33,143 bases of DNA, taken from contig SHZZ01000041.1 in NCBI GenBank assembly GCA_009692005.1, positions 1-33,143 on the forward strand, given 5' to 3'. Origin of the DNA: Gemmataceae bacterium (GTDB lineage Bacteria > Planctomycetota > Planctomycetia > Gemmatales > Gemmataceae). The position numbers and the translations under genes are program-made. Below are positions 8,954-33,036 of this stretch, one piece after another (within the stretch, counting starts at the first letter, position 1; each line of letters begins with the position of its first letter). The notes beneath the pieces were generated by a model. It was given only the letters and a program-made list of their open reading frames with translations. It did no database searches and was not told the DNA's origin.

Positions 8954-10222
8954 TTACACCAGGCCTTTCAAGGTCCCGGTGCCTGTGCCAAACTTGTCCA
9001 CCCCCAGCCCAAGGCGTTGTAGCATGCTGATATAGAGGTTGGATAAGGGCGGGGGTTTTTTTGGGTCGAAGGCCAGATGTGATCCGTGTTTGAAACCGCC
9101 ACCGGCCAGGATGACAGGCAAATTGGCGGTGGAATGGTTGCTGGCATTGCCCAGATTGCTGCTGAAAAACACAGCCGTTCGGTCGAGCAGTGTCTCGTCT
9201 TCCTCGCGGGTCTCTTTTAACTTGGCCAAAAAGCGCGCCAGGCTTTTCATTTTTTCCAACTCGACGGCGCGCAACTGCGCGATCTTGGTCGGGTCTTGCC
9301 CATGGTGCGAAAGATCGTGGTGACCCAGCGACACCTGGGGAATCGGGGGCACCAGGCTCGTGCCCAGCAGCAGCAGCGTAAACAGGCGCGTGGAATCGGT
9401 TTGCAGAGCCAGGTGAACCAGGTCCAACATCAGGTTCGCCTTTCCCACCATGTCGGCGGGGTTGCGATTTTCAACGGGGGGTTGGGCGTTCACTTTGGGT
9501 TTCGGCTTATTGGTCCATTCGCGGGAACGCGCCAGGCGCAATTCCAATTCCCTCACGCTGGTGAAGTACTCTTCCAGTTTTTCGCCATCGTCCCGTCCGA
9601 GGCTGGAGTGAATGCCCTTGGCTTGCGATTGAACCAAATCAAGAATGCTGCGCCCTTCCTCCAGCCTGCGAGTTTGCGCCGCCACATCATCGGGCTTTCC
9701 TTCGAGAAATAGCCTGGCGAAAACGGTGGAAGGAAAGGGATCCGAAGGAACAATAGCGCCGCTTTTGGTCCAGGAAAGGCTGAAGCCTTCGCAAGAAAGG
9801 GCCAGGGAAGGAAAGCGGGTTTCTCCGCCGATATGCTCGGCGGCCAACTGGTCGAGAGAAATGCTGTTGCGAAATCCCGCCCGGCGTTCAGGATGCGGGG
9901 CCGCAGTAAGGAAGCTAAAGATGGAATCGTGGCTCGAACCCACTTCCGGGTGGGACAACCCCGAGATGATCGTAAAATCCTGGCGGAAATCCTTGAGGAC
10001 ATCCAAGTAAGGGGTGGAAGGATAATCTTTTCCATCCTTGGTGGGAAACAGATTGGGCGCGTGCAAGCCGAGCGGCGCGCAGAGGCAAACCATTCTGCGC
10101 GGCTTGCTGGTTTTTTCCTTCGCCCCATGAGCATCAAAAAGGGGAAGCGCCAGGGAAACCCCCGCGGCGCGGAGGAACAGCCGCCGGTCGAGTTTGCTCC
10201 CCTTTTCCATAACACTTTTCAT
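8954..10222 (-). CDS. DUF1552 family exported protein
   Basis: This 422-residue protein begins with a Tat-like signal (DRRLFLRAAGVSLALPLF, residues 12-29), so export in folded form is likely. The body matches the planctomycete DUF1552 family in its MVCLCAPLGLHAPNLFP start, the TIISGLSHPEVGSSHDS segment and the FFSSNLGNASNHS stretch. The family resembles DUF1501 and alkaline-phosphatase-like folds in layout, but no enzymatic activity is known. The ATG at 10222 is preceded by GGAGG five bases upstream. It lies 20 bases downstream of the DUF1592 gene on the same strand, the standard pairing in planctomycetes, so the two are very probably co-transcribed and act together outside the cytoplasm. Confidence 0.92.
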   Translation of the reverse strand: MKSVMEKGSKLDRRLFLRAAGVSLALPLFDAHGAKEKTSKPRRMVCLCAPLGLHAPNLFPTKDGKDYPSTPYLDVLKDFRQDFTIISGLSHPEVGSSHDSIFSFLTAAPHPERRAGFRNSISLDQLAAEHIGGETRFPSLALSCEGFSLSWTKSGAIVPSDPFPSTVFARLFLEGKPDDVAAQTRRLEEGRSILDLVQSQAKGIHSSLGRDDGEKLEEYFTSVRELELRLARSREWTNKPKPKVNAQPPVENRNPADMVGKANLMLDLVHLALQTDSTRLFTLLLLGTSLVPPIPQVSLGHHDLSHHGQDPTKIAQLRAVELEKMKSLARFLAKLKETREEDETLLDRTAVFFSSNLGNASNHSTANLPVILAGGGFKHGSHLAFDPKKPPPLSNLYISMLQRLGLGVDKFGTGTGTLKGLV

Positions 10223-10242
10223 GCGCCCCTCCCAATCCGGGT

Positions 10243-12657
10243 TTAGTTTTTCCTGAACAACTCGCTATTCACCACTTCCCTTATCAGGGATTGGAAGCCA
10301 AATTTTTGCTCCCGGTTCTTTTCCACGATGGCATTCAAGGACCCCTGATCTGACGGAGAAGAGGTGGCGCCTGTGGCGTAGGTGAGCAGTCTGGCCGCCA
10401 TGCCCCGGACGATTTGGTCTTTTTCCAGCAGCAGCAGTTTTTTAAAGTCCTCGATGTTGTGAAACTTTTGCCCTTTAAAAACATCGCCCGCATCTACCGG
10501 CGGGCCTTGTAGATAATGCATCCGCCTGCCTTCTAGCATCACGGGTTTGCCTTTGCCCGAAGCCCTGTAATATTCGCGCCAGCCGCCAATGGCATCGAAA
10601 TTCTCCAGGGCAAAACCGGGCGGGTCGATTTTCACATGGCAAGCGGCGCACGATTCTTCCTGACGATGCCGGGCCAATTGGTCACGAATGGTGGTGGCGC
10701 CACGAATGTCGGGTTCAATGGCCGATACACCCTCGGGAGGGGGTGGAGGGGGGGTTCCCAAAATTCGGTCGAGCACCCAGGCGCCTCGAAGTACAGGCGA
10801 AGTGTAAGTGCCGTTGGCCGTCACCTTGAGTACGCTGGCCATGGTCAACACCCCGCCGCGGTGCGAACCAGGGGGCAGTGTGGTTTTTTTCATTTCCCAC
10901 CCATCCACCCCTGCGATGCCATAGTGGCGGGCCAGCCGCCCATTTAAAAAAGTAAAGTCGGCATCAATAAAGGTCAGCAGGCTCAAATCTTTTTGCAAAA
11001 CCTCCATGAAAAACCGGTGGGTTTCCTCCAGCATGGAAGCCTTCAACATCTCGTCGTATTCCGGGTAAAAGATGTGGCTGGGCGCCGTGGCGTCGATTTC
11101 CCTCAAGCCCAGCCATTGTCCCATGAAGTTTTTACAGAAGGCGTCGGCCTTGGAATTCTTGAGCATGCGGTTGACTTGCTGGGCGAGTTGACCCGGTTGT
11201 TGCAGCTTCTCCTGCTCGGCCAGGTGAAGCAATTCCTCATCCGGCATGGAACTCCAAAGGAAGTAAGAAAGCCTGGTGGCCAGGGAGAAATCATCCAACG
11301 GACCGGGTTTTTCCCTCAGGAACAAAAAATCGGGACTTACCAGGATGGCCTTGAACCCGGCTCGCAGGGCCTGCTCAAAGGAAGCTCCCTCATCCCGCTT
11401 CAACCTGGCTAGTTGTTCAAAGGGTTGGATTTCTTTCTCCGCTACATTTCTCCTGAAAGCCTTGCGGGCAAAATTCCTTAAGAGCCTGGCGGTGTCGGCG
11501 GCCGGGTTTGGGGAAATCACTTCCACGCGGCCGCGGTTACCGGGGGCGGGAACCGTGGCCTGGGCCAGATCGCCCATGAGTTGTCCATGGCTGGCGGGGG
11601 GCCAGGTTTCATGCAAAGGCCCTTCAACATCGATCCATTGCACTGCCAGGCCCGGGCCAGTGTATTCTTCCGCCCCGGTTTTGCTTACTGCCTGGGCGCT
11701 GGCCAGCCCGTAGGGCAACAGCCGAATCGTATTGCGCGGTTCGAAGTAATCGGTGAACTCCACCACTCTGGACTGGCCGGGCAGGGCATCGAAGTAGCCG
11801 ACCAAGTGTTGCTTGCCGGTCATCAGCATGAGCCCGGCATCCACTCTGAAGGTCACCGGTTTCTCGCTCTGAAACGCCGAAGTGGAAATGCGGAAACGGT
11901 AATTTCCCCGGTCGGGTGGATAAAATGGGGTCAGGCTGACGGCCTGCCAGGCGGAGGATGCGAAGCAGACCACTTCCTCCGCGGATTTGCGAAAAACTTT
12001 CTCGGTGGTGACTTTCACCTGATGGGTTTCCAAAAGGGAGTAGCGTTTTTTGACAAGGGGCGGCCGTGGCCCGTTGGCGATGGCCAAGGCCAAGGCCTTG
12101 TCCGCCGCCTCAAGATACCTTTCCATCAGGAAAGAGGAGGTGTGCAAAGCCTCACCCACATTGTCGAATCCCCCGGCCGAGGCATCAGGGGGTAAAAGGT
12201 CTTGCAGGTCGAGTTCGATTCCCAATAAATCGCGCAAAGTGTTCTGGTATTCGATGCGGTTCAGACGTCGCAGGACGGTCCGCCCCTGTTTGCTGTCCCG
12301 CCTTGAGGTTTGCTGATCAATCCAGGCAATCATGCCAGCGGAATCGGTCCAACGAGGTTTCCCCTTGGGCGGCATCGTTCCCGCATGCAGATGCTCCCTG
12401 ACCTTTTTCCAAATTGCCTGGTTCTTGGCATGGGAGAAGTCGTTTGTCAGGTTGGCCAGGTGAAAACCGCCTTTGGGTTTCTCGATTCCATGGCATTGGC
12501 CACAGGTTTTTTTCATGGAGGAAATGAAGGGATTGGCTGTATTGGCAAGCGGAATAACAGGCTGTTCAGCCTGGGCGAAAAGAATAAATCCGCAAGTTAG
12601 CGCCAGGGCGGGAACCAATCGCCGAAGGAGAAGGGAAGTGATGGCAGGGTAATTCAT
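10243..12657 (-). CDS. multi-domain planctomycete cytochrome-like protein (DUF1587/1595/1592/1588/1585)
   Basis: An 804-residue exported protein with a hydrophobic leader at residues 10-31. Cys52-Gly-Gln-Cys55-His56 is a c-type haem attachment motif inside a PSCyt1-like module with KPKGGFHL after it. DUF1587 follows at about 127-190 (LNRIEYQNTLRDLLGI), then a carbohydrate-binding-like beta region (200-350), DUF1595 at about 388-430 and DUF1592 at 430-590. DUF1588 at about 600-700 contains a second CxxCH, Cys670-Ala-Ala-Cys673-His674, and DUF1585 is at 735-804. Electron transfer or haem binding is likely from the two motifs. The substrate is unknown, although these genes have been suggested to act in extracellular polymer oxidation or degradation. 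It heads a two-gene unit with DUF1552. The order and length match full-length family members, and no truncation is seen. Confidence 0.93.
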   Translation of the reverse strand: MNYPAITSLLLRRLVPALALTCGFILFAQAEQPVIPLANTANPFISSMKKTCGQCHGIEKPKGGFHLANLTNDFSHAKNQAIWKKVREHLHAGTMPPKGKPRWTDSAGMIAWIDQQTSRRDSKQGRTVLRRLNRIEYQNTLRDLLGIELDLQDLLPPDASAGGFDNVGEALHTSSFLMERYLEAADKALALAIANGPRPPLVKKRYSLLETHQVKVTTEKVFRKSAEEVVCFASSAWQAVSLTPFYPPDRGNYRFRISTSAFQSEKPVTFRVDAGLMLMTGKQHLVGYFDALPGQSRVVEFTDYFEPRNTIRLLPYGLASAQAVSKTGAEEYTGPGLAVQWIDVEGPLHETWPPASHGQLMGDLAQATVPAPGNRGRVEVISPNPAADTARLLRNFARKAFRRNVAEKEIQPFEQLARLKRDEGASFEQALRAGFKAILVSPDFLFLREKPGPLDDFSLATRLSYFLWSSMPDEELLHLAEQEKLQQPGQLAQQVNRMLKNSKADAFCKNFMGQWLGLREIDATAPSHIFYPEYDEMLKASMLEETHRFFMEVLQKDLSLLTFIDADFTFLNGRLARHYGIAGVDGWEMKKTTLPPGSHRGGVLTMASVLKVTANGTYTSPVLRGAWVLDRILGTPPPPPPEGVSAIEPDIRGATTIRDQLARHRQEESCAACHVKIDPPGFALENFDAIGGWREYYRASGKGKPVMLEGRRMHYLQGPPVDAGDVFKGQKFHNIEDFKKLLLLEKDQIVRGMAARLLTYATGATSSPSDQGSLNAIVEKNREQKFGFQSLIREVVNSELFRKN

Positions 12658-28140: not shown

Positions 28141-29223
28141 TTAGCTTTTAGGCGTGAGGTCGTAAATGCGCGCGGTGGAGCCATAGAACGGTATGGCCAG
28201 GGACTTGCCCTCAGGGTGCAAGGCCAAGTCGCGGGCATTGTCAGGGAGTTTAAGCGAGGCAAATTCGTTGGGCGCCCCGGGCTTGAAGAACCAGAGCATG
28301 CCGCCATTCCCCCCCGCGGTGGCGGCGAGAAATCCCGCCTTGTGCCAGGCCACCCCCCACATGGTGCCCTGAAATTTTTCTTTCGACTGCAAAGTTTCCT
28401 TCACTTTTAGCGTGGCCCAATCGAGAACAACTAGAATTGGATTGCCCACGCCGGCGAAAGCGTTGCTGACATTGGTGATGCCCGCCAGGACAATGCTGTT
28501 GCCATCGGGGGAAAAAGCGATGGCCCGGGCCCCGCCGATGTCAGCTCCAAAACCAGCATCGTACTTGTGAAGCGCCTTGGCCTCGCCTTCGCGAAGCATC
28601 TTTCCTGCAAGATCCCAAACCCGTGTGTTGCCCATGAGATCCACCGAGACGAGTTCCTTCCCGCTTGGGTGGAAGAGAACCTGATAGGCATGTTTTTCGT
28701 GAGCTTGCCAGCTTTTGTCTGGAGTCAAAGCAGGCAGGTTCCACAGGCAGACCTTGCCGTCGTTGCCGCACGATGCCGCCAAATTTCCCGTGGCATCAAC
28801 ATCCAACCCGCGCACCCAACCCTGGTGGGCCAGGACTTGCCTAAGTGGAATGGGATCGGGTGACTCGGCGTTCCAGGTAAAGACCTGGCCATCGTATCCG
28901 CCGCTGATCAGCAGCGGCCCCTTCGGTTGGAACGCCAAGGCGCGCACCCAAGAGGAATGCCCCGCCAAGTCGGTTTTTTTACCCGAGGCCAGTTCCCACC
29001 TTTGCAAAGTATTATCCTGGCCCGAGGTGTAAAGAAACTTGCCGCTGGGTGTAAACCGGCAAGCGAGCATCGGGGCGGAGTGCTTGAATTCCTTGGCCAT
29101 GCGCGCCTGCGCCGGGTCCAAACCAGGATACGGTGGTGGCGGAGGAGGAGCTTTTTTCGGCTCCTCTTTCTTTGGCGCATCCTTCTTTGGCAACTCTTTG
29201 CCTTTTTTCTCTTGTTGGCTCAC
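28141..29223 (-). CDS. WD40 repeat protein
   Basis: A 360-residue protein with seven or so WD40 blades from about residue 43 to the end, each with the GHSSWVRALAFQP / SGGYDGQVFTWN type of pattern (for example CRFTPSGKFLYTSGQDNTLQRW, AAS.GNDGKVCLWN). The N-terminal 37 residues are Lys/Glu/Pro-rich with a run of Pro (KAPPPPPPYPG), without a recognisable signal peptide. Starting at GTG (29223), it overlaps the stop of the DUF1501 gene by four bases, so the two are translationally coupled. A beta-propeller partner is common in this planctomycete gene cluster. It probably assembles the DUF1501 and DUF1549 products, but no partner can be named from sequence. Confidence 0.9.
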   Translation of the reverse strand: MSQQEKKGKELPKKDAPKKEEPKKAPPPPPPYPGLDPAQARMAKEFKHSAPMLACRFTPSGKFLYTSGQDNTLQRWELASGKKTDLAGHSSWVRALAFQPKGPLLISGGYDGQVFTWNAESPDPIPLRQVLAHQGWVRGLDVDATGNLAASCGNDGKVCLWNLPALTPDKSWQAHEKHAYQVLFHPSGKELVSVDLMGNTRVWDLAGKMLREGEAKALHKYDAGFGADIGGARAIAFSPDGNSIVLAGITNVSNAFAGVGNPILVVLDWATLKVKETLQSKEKFQGTMWGVAWHKAGFLAATAGGNGGMLWFFKPGAPNEFASLKLPDNARDLALHPEGKSLAIPFYGSTARIYDLTPKS

Positions 29224-30491
29224 GCCAGGATTTCCTCAATGGCGGCGCCCTTCGGGTCGGCCATTGGCATCGGCCGCTGGTCGACATAAAAGTTCCGTTT
29301 CGAATCGAACCCAAGGGCCCGCAAATAAGTGTGGAACAAGTGCCCGCCATCCACTTCGCGATCAACCACCGCGGTTCCCGTGGCGTTGGTTTTTCCCACC
29401 ACCGCGCCGGGCTTCAAACCGCAGCCACCCAAGGCCACCGACCAGGCCCGCGACCAGTGGTCCCGGCCATAATTGCGGTTGATGTTGGGCGTGCGGCCAA
29501 ATTCGCTTTTCACCATGATCAAAGTGCTTTCCAACATGCCGCGGTCGTCGAGTTCTTCCAACAGGTTGGAAAATGGCTTGTCGAATTCACTCAGTTGCTC
29601 GATGTGAAAATCAAAGTTTTCGTGGTGGGTGTCGTAGTTAGTGTGGGTGACTTTAACAAAGGTGGCGCCGCCCTCGAGCAACCTGCGGGCCAGCAGGCAA
29701 TGGCGGCCAAAATCGTGCCGTCCGTAGCGGTCGCCCACCGGCACTGCTTCGCTGTCGATGTTGAAGAGGCTTTTCTTTTCCATGAGCAGACGGGCTTGAT
29801 CGTAGGTTTGCGTGTAGGCCTCGGTCATGGCCGAGCGCCTGCGGGCCAGGAAGCGCTCGTTGGCTGCTTGTCTGAGCATATGCCTCTGCTGATCGAGGTC
29901 GTTGTTGATGCTCCCTGGGCGGTCGAGGTTGGCTGGCGCCTTGCCTTCGCCAATGCCGACCGAGCCGAAACGCGGCCCAAGGTAAGCGGCGTCGGCGGCG
30001 CTTTGCCCGCCCCCGCCAGGGACAATATTCAAATACCCAGGCAGCGGGTTGGCATCGGTGGTTAATAGCTTGCTGCAAACCGAACCGAGGTGCGGAAAGC
30101 TGTTGGCCGGTTCCTGTCTGCGGCCGGTGTGCATGATGTAGGCGCCTTTGCCGTGGTCGTCTTCCTTGGTGTTGATGCCGCGCACCAGCGCCAGCTTGTG
30201 CATCCACTTGGCGGTTTTTGGCAGCAGTTCGGAAATGTAGATTCCGGGCACTGAAGTGGGAATGGCGCGGAAGGGCCCGCCCGTCACGGTGCCGGGCTTG
30301 GGGTCCCAGGTTTCCAGCTGGCTTACCCCACCCGAAAGCCACACCACCAGCACCCGCTTTTGTTTCGAGGACAATTCCTTGGCCGCCAGGGGAGAGGTCA
30401 AGGCTGCCAGACCGGCTCCGGCCGCTCCGCCAAGAAAGGCTCGCCGGGACACCCCGTGTTCATTCGTTCCACAAGCATATTGGCATCGCAT
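29220..30491 (-). CDS. DUF1501 family exported protein
   Basis: A 423-residue protein beginning with a Tat signal (VSRRAFLGGAAGAGLAALTS, twin Arg near residues 15-16). DUF1501 fills the mature part. Landmarks are LVVWLSGGVSQLETWDPKP near 49, the PLPGYLNIVPGGGG stretch, TYDQARLLMEKKSLFNI, YGRHDFGRHCLLARRLLEGGATFVKV, and SEFGRTPNINRNYGRDHWSRAW with GGCGLKPGAVVGKTN near the end. The layout resembles alkaline-phosphatase/sulfatase folds; the enzymatic role is unproven. The ATG at 30491 has AAGGAG nine bases upstream. It is second in the operon, 17 bases after the DUF1549/1553 gene, and overlaps the WD40 gene. DUF1501 with DUF1549/1553 is a typical planctomycete pair. Confidence 0.93.
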   Translation of the reverse strand: MRCQYACGTNEHGVSRRAFLGGAAGAGLAALTSPLAAKELSSKQKRVLVVWLSGGVSQLETWDPKPGTVTGGPFRAIPTSVPGIYISELLPKTAKWMHKLALVRGINTKEDDHGKGAYIMHTGRRQEPANSFPHLGSVCSKLLTTDANPLPGYLNIVPGGGGQSAADAAYLGPRFGSVGIGEGKAPANLDRPGSINNDLDQQRHMLRQAANERFLARRRSAMTEAYTQTYDQARLLMEKKSLFNIDSEAVPVGDRYGRHDFGRHCLLARRLLEGGATFVKVTHTNYDTHHENFDFHIEQLSEFDKPFSNLLEELDDRGMLESTLIMVKSEFGRTPNINRNYGRDHWSRAWSVALGGCGLKPGAVVGKTNATGTAVVDREVDGGHLFHTYLRALGFDSKRNFYVDQRPMPMADPKGAAIEEILA

Positions 30492-30508
30492 GACTGGCCT
30501 CTCCTTGT

Positions 30509-32152
30509 TCAGGAAATAAAACGAAATTCTACGCTGGTCACCATGGCCCAAACCAGATCCCGGACCGCCCCGGCCCTGTCGCTGATTCTCGCCTTCAAAA
30601 ATTGGGACACTTCTTTCTTTTCTTCTTCCGTGGGAAAACGGGTGAGAACAGAAAGGTAAAGCTCGTCAGCGACCTGTTCAGGGGCCAAGGCCGCCAGACG
30701 GAAGGTCAAGGAGCCCGGCTGGGGTGAAAGCAACCCCTGCAGGTAGCCGTTATTTGCCAGGAACAAGGCCTGTTCCACCCGCGAATCATAAGTCGCCGCT
30801 TCACCCGGCTGGCTGGCAAAGGCCTGCATGGCCGGCTGCGCCATGGGCGCAATCTTTGCCCGCAAGCTCGACCGCAGCGCCCGCGACTCACCCTTGTTTC
30901 CTTGAGCCTGCTTTTCCGCGTCGGTTAAACCGGTGGCTTGCATCAAAGCATAGGCGAACTGTTCTGCCGACATAGGCCGGACGGCGGCAACCAAGAATTC
31001 CTCGGCTTTGAACTCGCCAGAACCCTTGGGCGCCTGGCTGGAGCGGGAGTAGGTTTTGCTCTTGGCCAAAGTCCCCAAGATTTCCTTCTGGTTGAACTTC
31101 ATCTTCACGAGTTCCTTGGTCAGGAGGTCGAGAAGTTCCGGGTGCGAAGGCGGATTGTCGGAATGATCGAGATCCAACGGGTGAACGATACCCCGGCCCA
31201 TCATGTGGTTAAACAAGCGGTTGGCAGCGTTGCGCGGGAACGGGGTGAAATCGCCATTGGCCAGCTCCCCGGCCAGTTTGGCCCGGCGGCTGTACTTCGG
31301 CACCCCGCGAACCTCTTTGGCAGGCGCCACATCGTATTCTTTCCCTTTTTCCAACTTCGGCTCGCCCAGTTCTTTTCGCGCGCCCATTTTCGGCAAGCTC
31401 GTCTTCGTCGTCTTTTTGGGGTCGAACACCGACTGGAAGCTCGCTTCGCCATCGGCTTTCTCCGCCAGGACGGCCTTTTTCGTTTTCGCATCGGTGAAGA
31501 CACTGGTGCGGTTGAAAAATGCGAATAGGCCATAGTAAAGGTCTTGTTTGTAATCCTCAACCCGCGGGTGGTCGTGGCATTGCGCGCACTGCCAATTGCT
31601 GCCGAGGAACAACCGGCTGATGTCGCGGGTGAGCAGGTGTGGTTCGGCGTCACGGTCGAGGTAAAAGCGGGAAGCGGCGCGGGTCTTGGGGTCGTTGCCA
31701 TCCGCCGTCAAAATTTCCCGCACTAACTGGTCGTAGGGTTTGTTCTCCAACATAGATTGCAAAAGAAACTGCTTCCACTCGTCATTGGTGACATGCTTGG
31801 TGGGGCGCCTTTCCATCCAGGTGAGGTCGAGAACGCCAGCGTAGTATGCGGGATGCCAGACATCCGCGAGAAGTTTATCGACCTGGGCTGCACGCTTGTT
31901 TGGGGATTTGTCAGCCTGGAATTCCCTGGCTTCTTGCGCCGTGGGAATAGTTCCATGCAGATCGAGGGTGACTCTTCTCAGGAACTCAAGGTCGGTGGAA
32001 TCGGCCGAGGCGCGGGTGGAATAGTTGGGAACCTTGCTGGCAATGGCGCTGTCGATTTTTTCCTGCAACGGTTGCCCCTGAACCGCGCCGACAAAAATGC
32101 AAACTGTCAACAGGGAAACGCCGCACCTCACGCGGTTCAGTTCCAAGGCCAT
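30509..32152 (-). CDS. DUF1549/DUF1553 cytochrome-like exported protein
   Basis: A 547-residue exported protein with a hydrophobic leader at residues 10-27. DUF1549 covers about 30-210 (DLEFLRRVTLDLHGTIPTAQEA is its hallmark) and includes a c-type haem attachment site, Cys189-Ala-Gln-Cys192-His193. A linker with Lys-rich segments follows, and DUF1553 is at about 305-547 (NAANRLFNHMMGRGIVHPLDL, then LYLSVLTRFPTEEEKKEV). The protein is shorter than the 800-1000-residue members, which carry an extra N-terminal PSCyt1 module; that module is absent here. The ATG at 32152 has AAGGA eight bases upstream. It heads the four-gene operon with DUF1501, WD40 and DUF6807 genes. Haem binding is likely; the substrate is unknown. 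Confidence 0.93.
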   Translation of the reverse strand: MALELNRVRCGVSLLTVCIFVGAVQGQPLQEKIDSAIASKVPNYSTRASADSTDLEFLRRVTLDLHGTIPTAQEAREFQADKSPNKRAAQVDKLLADVWHPAYYAGVLDLTWMERRPTKHVTNDEWKQFLLQSMLENKPYDQLVREILTADGNDPKTRAASRFYLDRDAEPHLLTRDISRLFLGSNWQCAQCHDHPRVEDYKQDLYYGLFAFFNRTSVFTDAKTKKAVLAEKADGEASFQSVFDPKKTTKTSLPKMGARKELGEPKLEKGKEYDVAPAKEVRGVPKYSRRAKLAGELANGDFTPFPRNAANRLFNHMMGRGIVHPLDLDHSDNPPSHPELLDLLTKELVKMKFNQKEILGTLAKSKTYSRSSQAPKGSGEFKAEEFLVAAVRPMSAEQFAYALMQATGLTDAEKQAQGNKGESRALRSSLRAKIAPMAQPAMQAFASQPGEAATYDSRVEQALFLANNGYLQGLLSPQPGSLTFRLAALAPEQVADELYLSVLTRFPTEEEKKEVSQFLKARISDRAGAVRDLVWAMVTSVEFRFIS

Positions 32153-32207
32153 ATATGAGGTCCTTTCCAAAACAGGCCGGCAGGGGGGCGTACAGGCAGG
32201 TATGCCT

Positions 32208-32236
32208 ATTTTGCTCACATTTTACCTTGATGTCAA
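32208..32236 (-). promoter_or_regulatory. sigma-70-like promoter of the DUF1549-DUF1501 operon
   Basis: On the minus strand a perfect -35 hexamer, TTGACA (32231-32236), is followed after exactly 17 bases by CAAAAT (32208-32213), a 4/6 match to the -10 consensus. Transcription would start about 50 bases before the ATG at 32152. It is the best-looking promoter in the window. Confidence 0.65.
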
Positions 32237-32479: not shown

Positions 32480-32488
32480 TGAAGAATC

Positions 32489-32583
32489 GGGAGTGTTTGC
32501 ACGGTTGGTGCCGGCCCTGGTCTTCAAAACCAGCGGGGGGTTTGAACAAAGCTCTCAGTGGATTCGATTTCCATACACTCCCG
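32489..32583 (+). tRNA. selC: tRNA-Sec (selenocysteine, anticodon UCA)
   Basis: A 95-nt tRNA-like gene with the bacterial selenocysteine-tRNA layout. A perfect 8-bp acceptor stem (32489-32496 GGGAGTGT with 32575-32582 ACACTCCC) is followed by discriminator G. The T-arm is 5 bp (GTGGA/TCCAT, one G-U pair) with loop TTCGATT, stacked directly on the acceptor to give the 8+5 arrangement. The anticodon arm is CTGGT / CTTCAAA / ACCAG, so the anticodon is TCA, which reads UGA. A long variable arm (32534-32557) has a TTT GAAC AAA tip and a G-rich stem with one mismatch. The D-arm is present (GCAC..GTGC or an alternative with a bulged A) but its exact pairing is uncertain. CCA is not encoded. Anticodon, length and stem sizes together make other tRNAs very unlikely. 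SelA, SelB and SelD genes are not in this window. Confidence 0.88.
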
Positions 32584-32616
32584 CTTCTTCACCTCAATGA
32601 AGTCCCAGGCAGTAAA

Positions 32617-32653
32617 CAAAAAAGCGTAGATCCCATGCGGTTGCAACTGGGAT
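32617..32653 (-). terminator. possible terminator after the truncated gene
   Basis: On the minus strand ATCCCA (32648-32653) pairs with TGGGAT (32630-32635) around a loop containing GTTGCAAC, followed a few bases later by six T residues. It lies just past the stop of the gene fragment at 32664 and between that fragment and tRNA-Sec. The T-run is displaced from the stem, so efficiency is doubtful. Confidence 0.35.
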
Positions 32654-32663
32654 AAAGAACTTC

Positions 32664-32975
32664 CTATTTCTTTTTTTCTTCCTTGGGTAAGACCGTCAGG
32701 GTGAGCGGCCGGGCGGGTTGATTCACCAGTGTGTTGGCCTTGGGAGTTTTGTCGTCCTTGCTAAAAGGCACCTGGGCCTGGCCAGAAATCACTATGGAAT
32801 ACTCCCCCGGCTGGCAGTTGGCCTGCGCCTCAAGAACCACTTTGGCCTCGTTTTTGTCCGCCGCCAGCACCACATTCCCCATCTTGATGGAGTTGGGAAA
32901 CTCCAGCGCTTGCAGGGTCACCTGATTTTTGAAATCAGGCCAGTCAGATGATTGAAAGCCTAAAGGGAAGTGGTA
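32664..32975 (-). pseudogene. C-terminal remnant of a large secreted planctomycete protein
   Basis: The frame is open from 32975 (an in-frame TAG lies just before it) to the stop at 32664, about 103 codons. The recognisable part begins DWPDFKNQVTLQALEFP and continues through NVVLAADKNEAKVVLEAQA, PGEYSIVISGQAQVPF and a Lys-rich end KEEKKK. From memory this is the closing segment of long exported proteins, with repeated beta-sandwich or PPC-like domains, often linked to DUF1501/DUF1549 clusters in Gemmataceae. A GTG at 32921 could give an 85-residue product, but no ribosome site precedes it, there is no signal peptide, and homology begins upstream of it. I therefore read it as a truncated gene whose front part has been lost, beside tRNA-Sec. 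A genuine short protein is less likely. Confidence 0.65.
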
Positions 32976-32989
32976 CTAATTAAAAACTC

Positions 32990-33036
32990 AAAAGAACCCA
33001 CCCTCGGCTTACGCCGATGAGTGGGTTCTTTTTTTT
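32990..33036. terminator. strong bidirectional terminator
   Basis: A long hairpin in which AAAGAACCCA (32991-33000) pairs with TGGGTTCTTT (33022-33031) and an inner stem TCGGC/GCCGA closes a TTAC loop. It is followed by a run of nine T residues on the plus side and has A-rich sequence on the other, so it can act in both directions. It lies just upstream of the gene remnant, with no complete gene adjoining it inside the window. Confidence 0.85.

Follow-up and report, generated by a model that had tools for sequence, protein, structure and literature searches.

A gene near one end of the 33,143-nucleotide stretch of DNA analyzed here (the window, contig C72 of its genome) is, with a probability that we put at about 0.96 from sequence comparisons, the functional selC of a Gemmataceae-like planctomycete that uses selenocysteine (Sec). 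The bacterial route to Sec, which relies on seryl-tRNA synthetase, SelA, SelD, SelB, and the bSECIS hairpin, is established biology. In this organism, seryl-tRNA synthetase would load tRNA-Sec with serine, SelA would turn the serine into selenocysteine using selenophosphate from SelD, and SelB would bring the resulting Sec-tRNA to in-frame UGA codons that precede a bSECIS hairpin. We infer that the gene is transcribed, that its product is charged, and that Sec is actually inserted.

An earlier note, made from the DNA letters, had proposed a tRNA-Sec gene with a UCA anticodon and a long variable arm at positions 32489 to 32583 and had named a covariance-model score below the tRNA-Sec threshold as grounds for rejecting it. 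ARAGORN called a tRNA-SeC with anticodon tca on the plus strand at 32489 to 32584, and Rfam cmscan matched positions 32489 to 32582 to the tRNA-Sec model RF01852 over its full length (model positions 1 to 91 of 91) with 65.3 bits (E = 2.5e-11), above the gathering score of 47; both searches therefore bear the proposal out. The acceptor stem (GGGAGTGT/ACACTCCC) forms 8 bp free of mismatches, as the note had described, and the 5-bp T-stem that it reported is also seen, with one G-U among its pairs. The parts of the gene are listed in Table 1. Like bacterial tRNA-Sec (selC; RF01852; as defined in PMC5330540), the gene combines a full-length score above gathering, 8- and 5-bp stems, a UCA anticodon, a long variable arm, the discriminator G73 at position 32583, and a 6-bp D-stem with a 4-nt D-loop, whose six pairs are 99.5% paired among 33 sequences and are accompanied by one bulge. 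The other above-cut-off RF01852 match among those listed for the genome, on contig C24, is an ordinary tRNA-Ser(UGA) according to ARAGORN, so the window gene is the sole tRNA-Sec found in the genome. The region close upstream of it yielded no promoter match.

Table 1. Parts of the tRNA-Sec gene in the window and the TGA-recoded genes other than selD elsewhere in the genome.
Feature	Position	Strand	Basis
tRNA-Sec gene (selC), 94 nt and discriminator G, without an encoded CCA	32489..32583	+	ARAGORN, RF01852, covariation
Anticodon TCA (UCA), UGA-reading	32524..32526	+	ARAGORN, sequence
Acceptor stem 5' arm, 8 bp with 32575-32582	32489..32496	+	Sequence, Rfam, alignment
Acceptor stem 3' arm	32575..32582	+	Sequence, Rfam, alignment
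D arm: 6-bp stem, bulged A 32501, 4-nt loop TGGT	32499..32515	+	Rfam, alignment
Long variable arm, 8 bp plus 5-nt loop	32536..32556	+	Alignment of relatives
T arm, 5 bp plus 7-nt loop TTCGATT	32558..32574	+	Rfam, alignment
SelW-like protein, YCSKU	Just upstream of selD		
SelW-like protein, YCTSU	C29		
PrxQ-like protein, PKAMTGGU			
ResA/TlpA-like protein, WUPPC			
Deiodinase-related protein, SYTUPPC			
SelL-related protein, UIPC			Above NCBIfam cut-off
Small thioredoxin-like protein, UIPC			

The fold is strongly conserved. We gathered 40 further tRNA-Sec genes from relatives, giving 41 with the window gene; most relatives within the family carry a tRNA-Sec that shares 80 to 96% identity with it along its length. 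Across the 33 gap-free homologues, 99.4% of the structure is paired, a value reached by none of 500 shuffles, and 19 of 32 pairs have changed on both sides somewhere in this set; the 8 acceptor and 5 T-stem pairs are 99 to 100% paired across the 33 sequences. A G directly follows the acceptor stem in 41/41 genes. In contrast to bacterial tRNA-Sec in general, the window gene and its aligned relatives share a one-nucleotide bulge in the D-stem. This nucleotide, which was absent from the earlier description of the gene, lies between D-stem pairs 2 and 3, and the bulge is kept at this place in the relatives. The flanking pairs vary (outside, from G-C to A-U and C-G; inside, among C-G, G-C, A-U, and U-A), with pairing preserved through compensatory or wobble changes, which marks the bulge as a feature of the lineage and not an error. 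At the innermost position of the D-stem, the window gene has a U-G wobble pair and the relatives have C-G. A D-stem bulge at position 13a has been described as specific to Clostridiales (PMC5330540), and the position of the bulge seen here may or may not coincide with it. The sequences flanking the gene are not conserved among relatives, save clearly in one genome (G019), which has in common with the window the PSCyt2/PSD1 gene adjoining tRNA-Sec (L063; 61% protein identity).

The genome (4.19 Mb in 99 contigs; completeness, 100; contamination, 1.41) also encodes the proteins required for Sec decoding. The earlier note had suggested a search for selA, selB, and selD, whose absence from a complete genome would have suggested a relic tRNA gene; all three are present above curated NCBIfam cut-offs, namely, selA with 554.5 bits (cut-off, 267.9), selB with 360.3 bits (cut-off, 242.25), and selD with 351 bits (cut-off, 125). 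The selA and selB genes adjoin on contig C84, approximately 65 nt apart. SelA carries the SGDKLLGGPQAG motif, and SelB consists of GTPase domains and a C-terminal winged-helix domain (PF09107), has a bacterial SelB as its best PDB match, and has its nearest relatives in Planctomycetota, Fimbriiglobus, Gemmata, and Gemmataceae records, from which we infer the name Gemmataceae-like for the family. The selD gene, on contig C47, contains one in-frame TGA (TDYASCAG-U-AGKLPPGG), at the catalytic Sec/Cys position of SelD. Because tRNA-Sec, selAB, and selD lie on separate contigs, their co-occurrence rests on binning. The 2-selenouridine synthase gene ybbB/selU (TIGR03167) had no match in the genome.

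Eight genes in the genome are recoded by TGA: selD, two SelW-like genes (CxxU), and five genes for proteins with a peroxiredoxin/thioredoxin fold (TxxU or UxxC) (Table 1). This number is a lower bound that comes from family searches and targeted stretches of the genome. In the seven genes other than selD, the TGA falls exactly at the redox-motif position, so that all eight have an in-frame UGA at a Cys/Sec position, and the motif of the PrxQ-like protein matches the PxxxTxxU motif described in PMC13188914. These genes bear out the expectation that standard gene calling would misread UGA codons as stops in this genome. As for the UGA-interrupted homologues that had been suggested, SelD proved to be one (TGA in SCAG-U-AGK), while formate dehydrogenase did not: none of the eight PF00384 (molybdopterin oxidoreductase) matches in the genome contains a TGA, indicating that this enzyme does not drive Sec use here and ruling it out as the chief selenoprotein. 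Genome scans with PF00085 (thioredoxin), PF02627 (AhpD-like), and PF13098 (Thioredoxin_2) added no further gene with a TGA, recovering only one of those described above. When the window was scanned by codon usage, five weak read-through candidates emerged, which lacked a redox motif and were taken as opposite-strand shadow frames. Among relatives, one SelW-like gene (L214, on G013:C82) contains two TGAs (YUSMU), and both of its CxxC positions may be selenocysteine. A second type of SelD that has no TGA and lies in a frame of 630 to 1440 amino acids, probably an oxidoreductase-SelD fusion, was seen in G027:C67, G022:C63, and about eight other relatives; some relatives' genomes seem to carry only this type.

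Each of the eight UGA codons is followed by a hairpin with the properties of a bSECIS. According to the model in PMC13188914, a bSECIS has a small apical loop that starts with a G, in many cases with a G or U next to it, 16 to 37 nt after the UGA. The bSECIS prediction advised in the earlier note returned, for 8/8 recoded genes, a hairpin with a GU apical loop 21 to 34 nt after the UGA and a stem score of at least 14; the hairpins fit the model with no departure from it. Of 2,894 other TGA trinucleotides, taken from the window and parts of the genome, 0.93% satisfy the same rule, a contrast that is somewhat flattered because the loop rule was set after seeing the eight genes. The alignment of SelW genes provides an independent test of the hairpin. 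Among 38 such genes from relatives and this genome, which are related and do not represent 38 independent events, five of the seven pairs have changed on both sides, and the stem beats 500/500 shuffles (in paired cells and in covariation) and every slid control. The serine codon in the loop is AGT in 37 of the 38 SelW genes, and the remaining one has GGT, which keeps the GU; AGT makes up 7.1% of serine codons in the window genes. In SelW-like and SelD genes, the apical loop reads GTT or GTC with few exceptions.

The Sec trait is distributed unevenly among relatives. When a tRNA-Sec match of more than 60 bits is counted as high scoring, 40 of 59 genomes have selA and a high-scoring tRNA-Sec, 4 fragmented genomes have selA alone, 15 have neither, and none has the tRNA alone. 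In the Gemmataceae-like family of the window, selA is present in 34/37 genomes and a high-scoring tRNA-Sec in 30/37, whereas most of the other families sampled in the class do not have the trait. The earlier view that Sec use is not a general planctomycete trait is therefore partly right: it holds for most of the other families sampled but not within the window's own family, where Sec use is near universal. Two near-complete members of this family (G010 and G012) are without selA, an above-cut-off selD, and tRNA-Sec, which points to secondary loss. The target genes follow the same division: deiodinase-like genes contain TGA in 22/34 cases in genomes with the trait versus 0/7 in those without it (Fisher P = 0.002), and SelW-like genes do so in 38/40 versus 0/2 cases. 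This close contrast within one class offers a test bed for studying how the trait is gained and lost and how Sec is exchanged for Cys. In a separate observation, two genomes of family f6 (G047 and G056) have SelA-like genes (274 and 155 bits, respectively) and no above-cut-off selD or high-scoring tRNA-Sec; these genes perhaps encode a SelA paralogue with another role.

Other readings of the window gene must be weighed against these data. It could be a relic or orphan left behind after the Sec machinery was lost, as the lack of linkage in the assembly between tRNA-Sec and either selAB or selD might suggest. We consider this very unlikely, because selA, selB, and selD are all present and open, selD is itself recoded by UGA, tRNA-Sec is almost fully paired across relatives and covaries strongly, and relatives that are without selA are also without tRNA-Sec. 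Another reading follows from the fact that tRNA-Sec is first charged by seryl-tRNA synthetase: the product could be a serine tRNA or allo-tRNA that reads UGA but puts in serine or cysteine in place of selenocysteine. Long-arm tRNAs of similar size and other identity do occur in two relatives (L068 and L069, tRNA-Cys with anticodon GCA). The full-length match to the tRNA-Sec model, the 8/5 fold with G73 and UCA, the presence of SelA and SelB, and the placement of UGAs at catalytic Cys/Sec positions ahead of bSECIS-like hairpins make this extremely improbable. The two tRNAs from relatives are worth recording in their own right: they lie at 2110 to 2202 of L068 (G042:C316) and 2453 to 2546 of L069 (G024:C12), are 93 to 94 nt long, score 55 to 56 bits with the tRNA-Sec model yet are called tRNA-Cys, and resemble reported allo-tRNAs.

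The contig might also have come from another organism in the sample. The genome is divided among many contigs, and the window is apparently an entire short one. However, the close identity of its tRNA-Sec to the genes of most same-family relatives, the PSCyt2/PSD1 neighbor held in common with G019, and the low reported contamination leave such a binning artifact hardly any probability. By every sequence test applied, the gene is almost certainly a working selC in a Sec-using member of this family.

Sec use in planctomycetes was reported in 2016 for Gemmata obscuriglobus, Isosphaera pallida, and the Porphyra planctomycetes P1 and P2 (PMC4807772). Like those systems, the genome studied here has a complete Sec-insertion gene set, and its mechanism is the standard bacterial one; it also shares with Gemmata and Isosphaera the lack of 2-selenouridine synthase. 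The main text of that paper gives selenoproteins for P1 and P2, including a Sec formate dehydrogenase in P1, whereas none was found here and the set consists instead of two SelW-like and five thioredoxin-fold selenoproteins in addition to SelD. Selenoprotein-rich bacteria have been named as Deltaproteobacteria, Clostridia, and Synergistetes (PMC5029168, PMC9312934), with planctomycetes unmentioned in the main texts of these papers and of PMC13188914 and the subject of a passing remark in PMC1794560. The breadth of Sec use in the family, the set of thiol-redox selenoproteins, and the conserved D-stem bulge of tRNA-Sec are apparently new. On balance, we lean toward the view that the family is an unrecognized selenoprotein-rich lineage (at least eight here, above the literature threshold of six) with thiol-redox selenoproteins, including Sec/Cys-switching deiodinase-related proteins, and a family-wide D-stem bulge in tRNA-Sec. 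Because UGA-containing genes are truncated or dropped by standard annotation, an entire planctomycete family probably has its redox biology misannotated.

Several other features of the window were observed. The segments 32480 to 32499 and 32572 to 32591 form an inverted repeat in which TGAAGAA/TTCTTCA lengthens the acceptor stem past two mismatched nucleotides and may form a precursor stem; as a candidate processing signal, this repeat (32480 to 32591) was set aside because it is missing in all 40 relatives. At 32990 to 33032, near the contig end, two arms of 12 bp (AAAAGAACCCAC/GTGGGTTCTTTT) make up a perfect inverted repeat that, with the T run behind it, is terminator-like. A minus-strand reading frame at approximately 32650 to 32980 seems to be cut off near this repeat or the contig end. 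Finally, the window contains two uncharacterized gene pairs of planctomycete type, one at 8954 to 12657 (DUF1552 with PSD/PSCyt domains) and one at 29220 to 32218 (DUF1501 with PSCyt2/PSD1), the latter directly beside tRNA-Sec.
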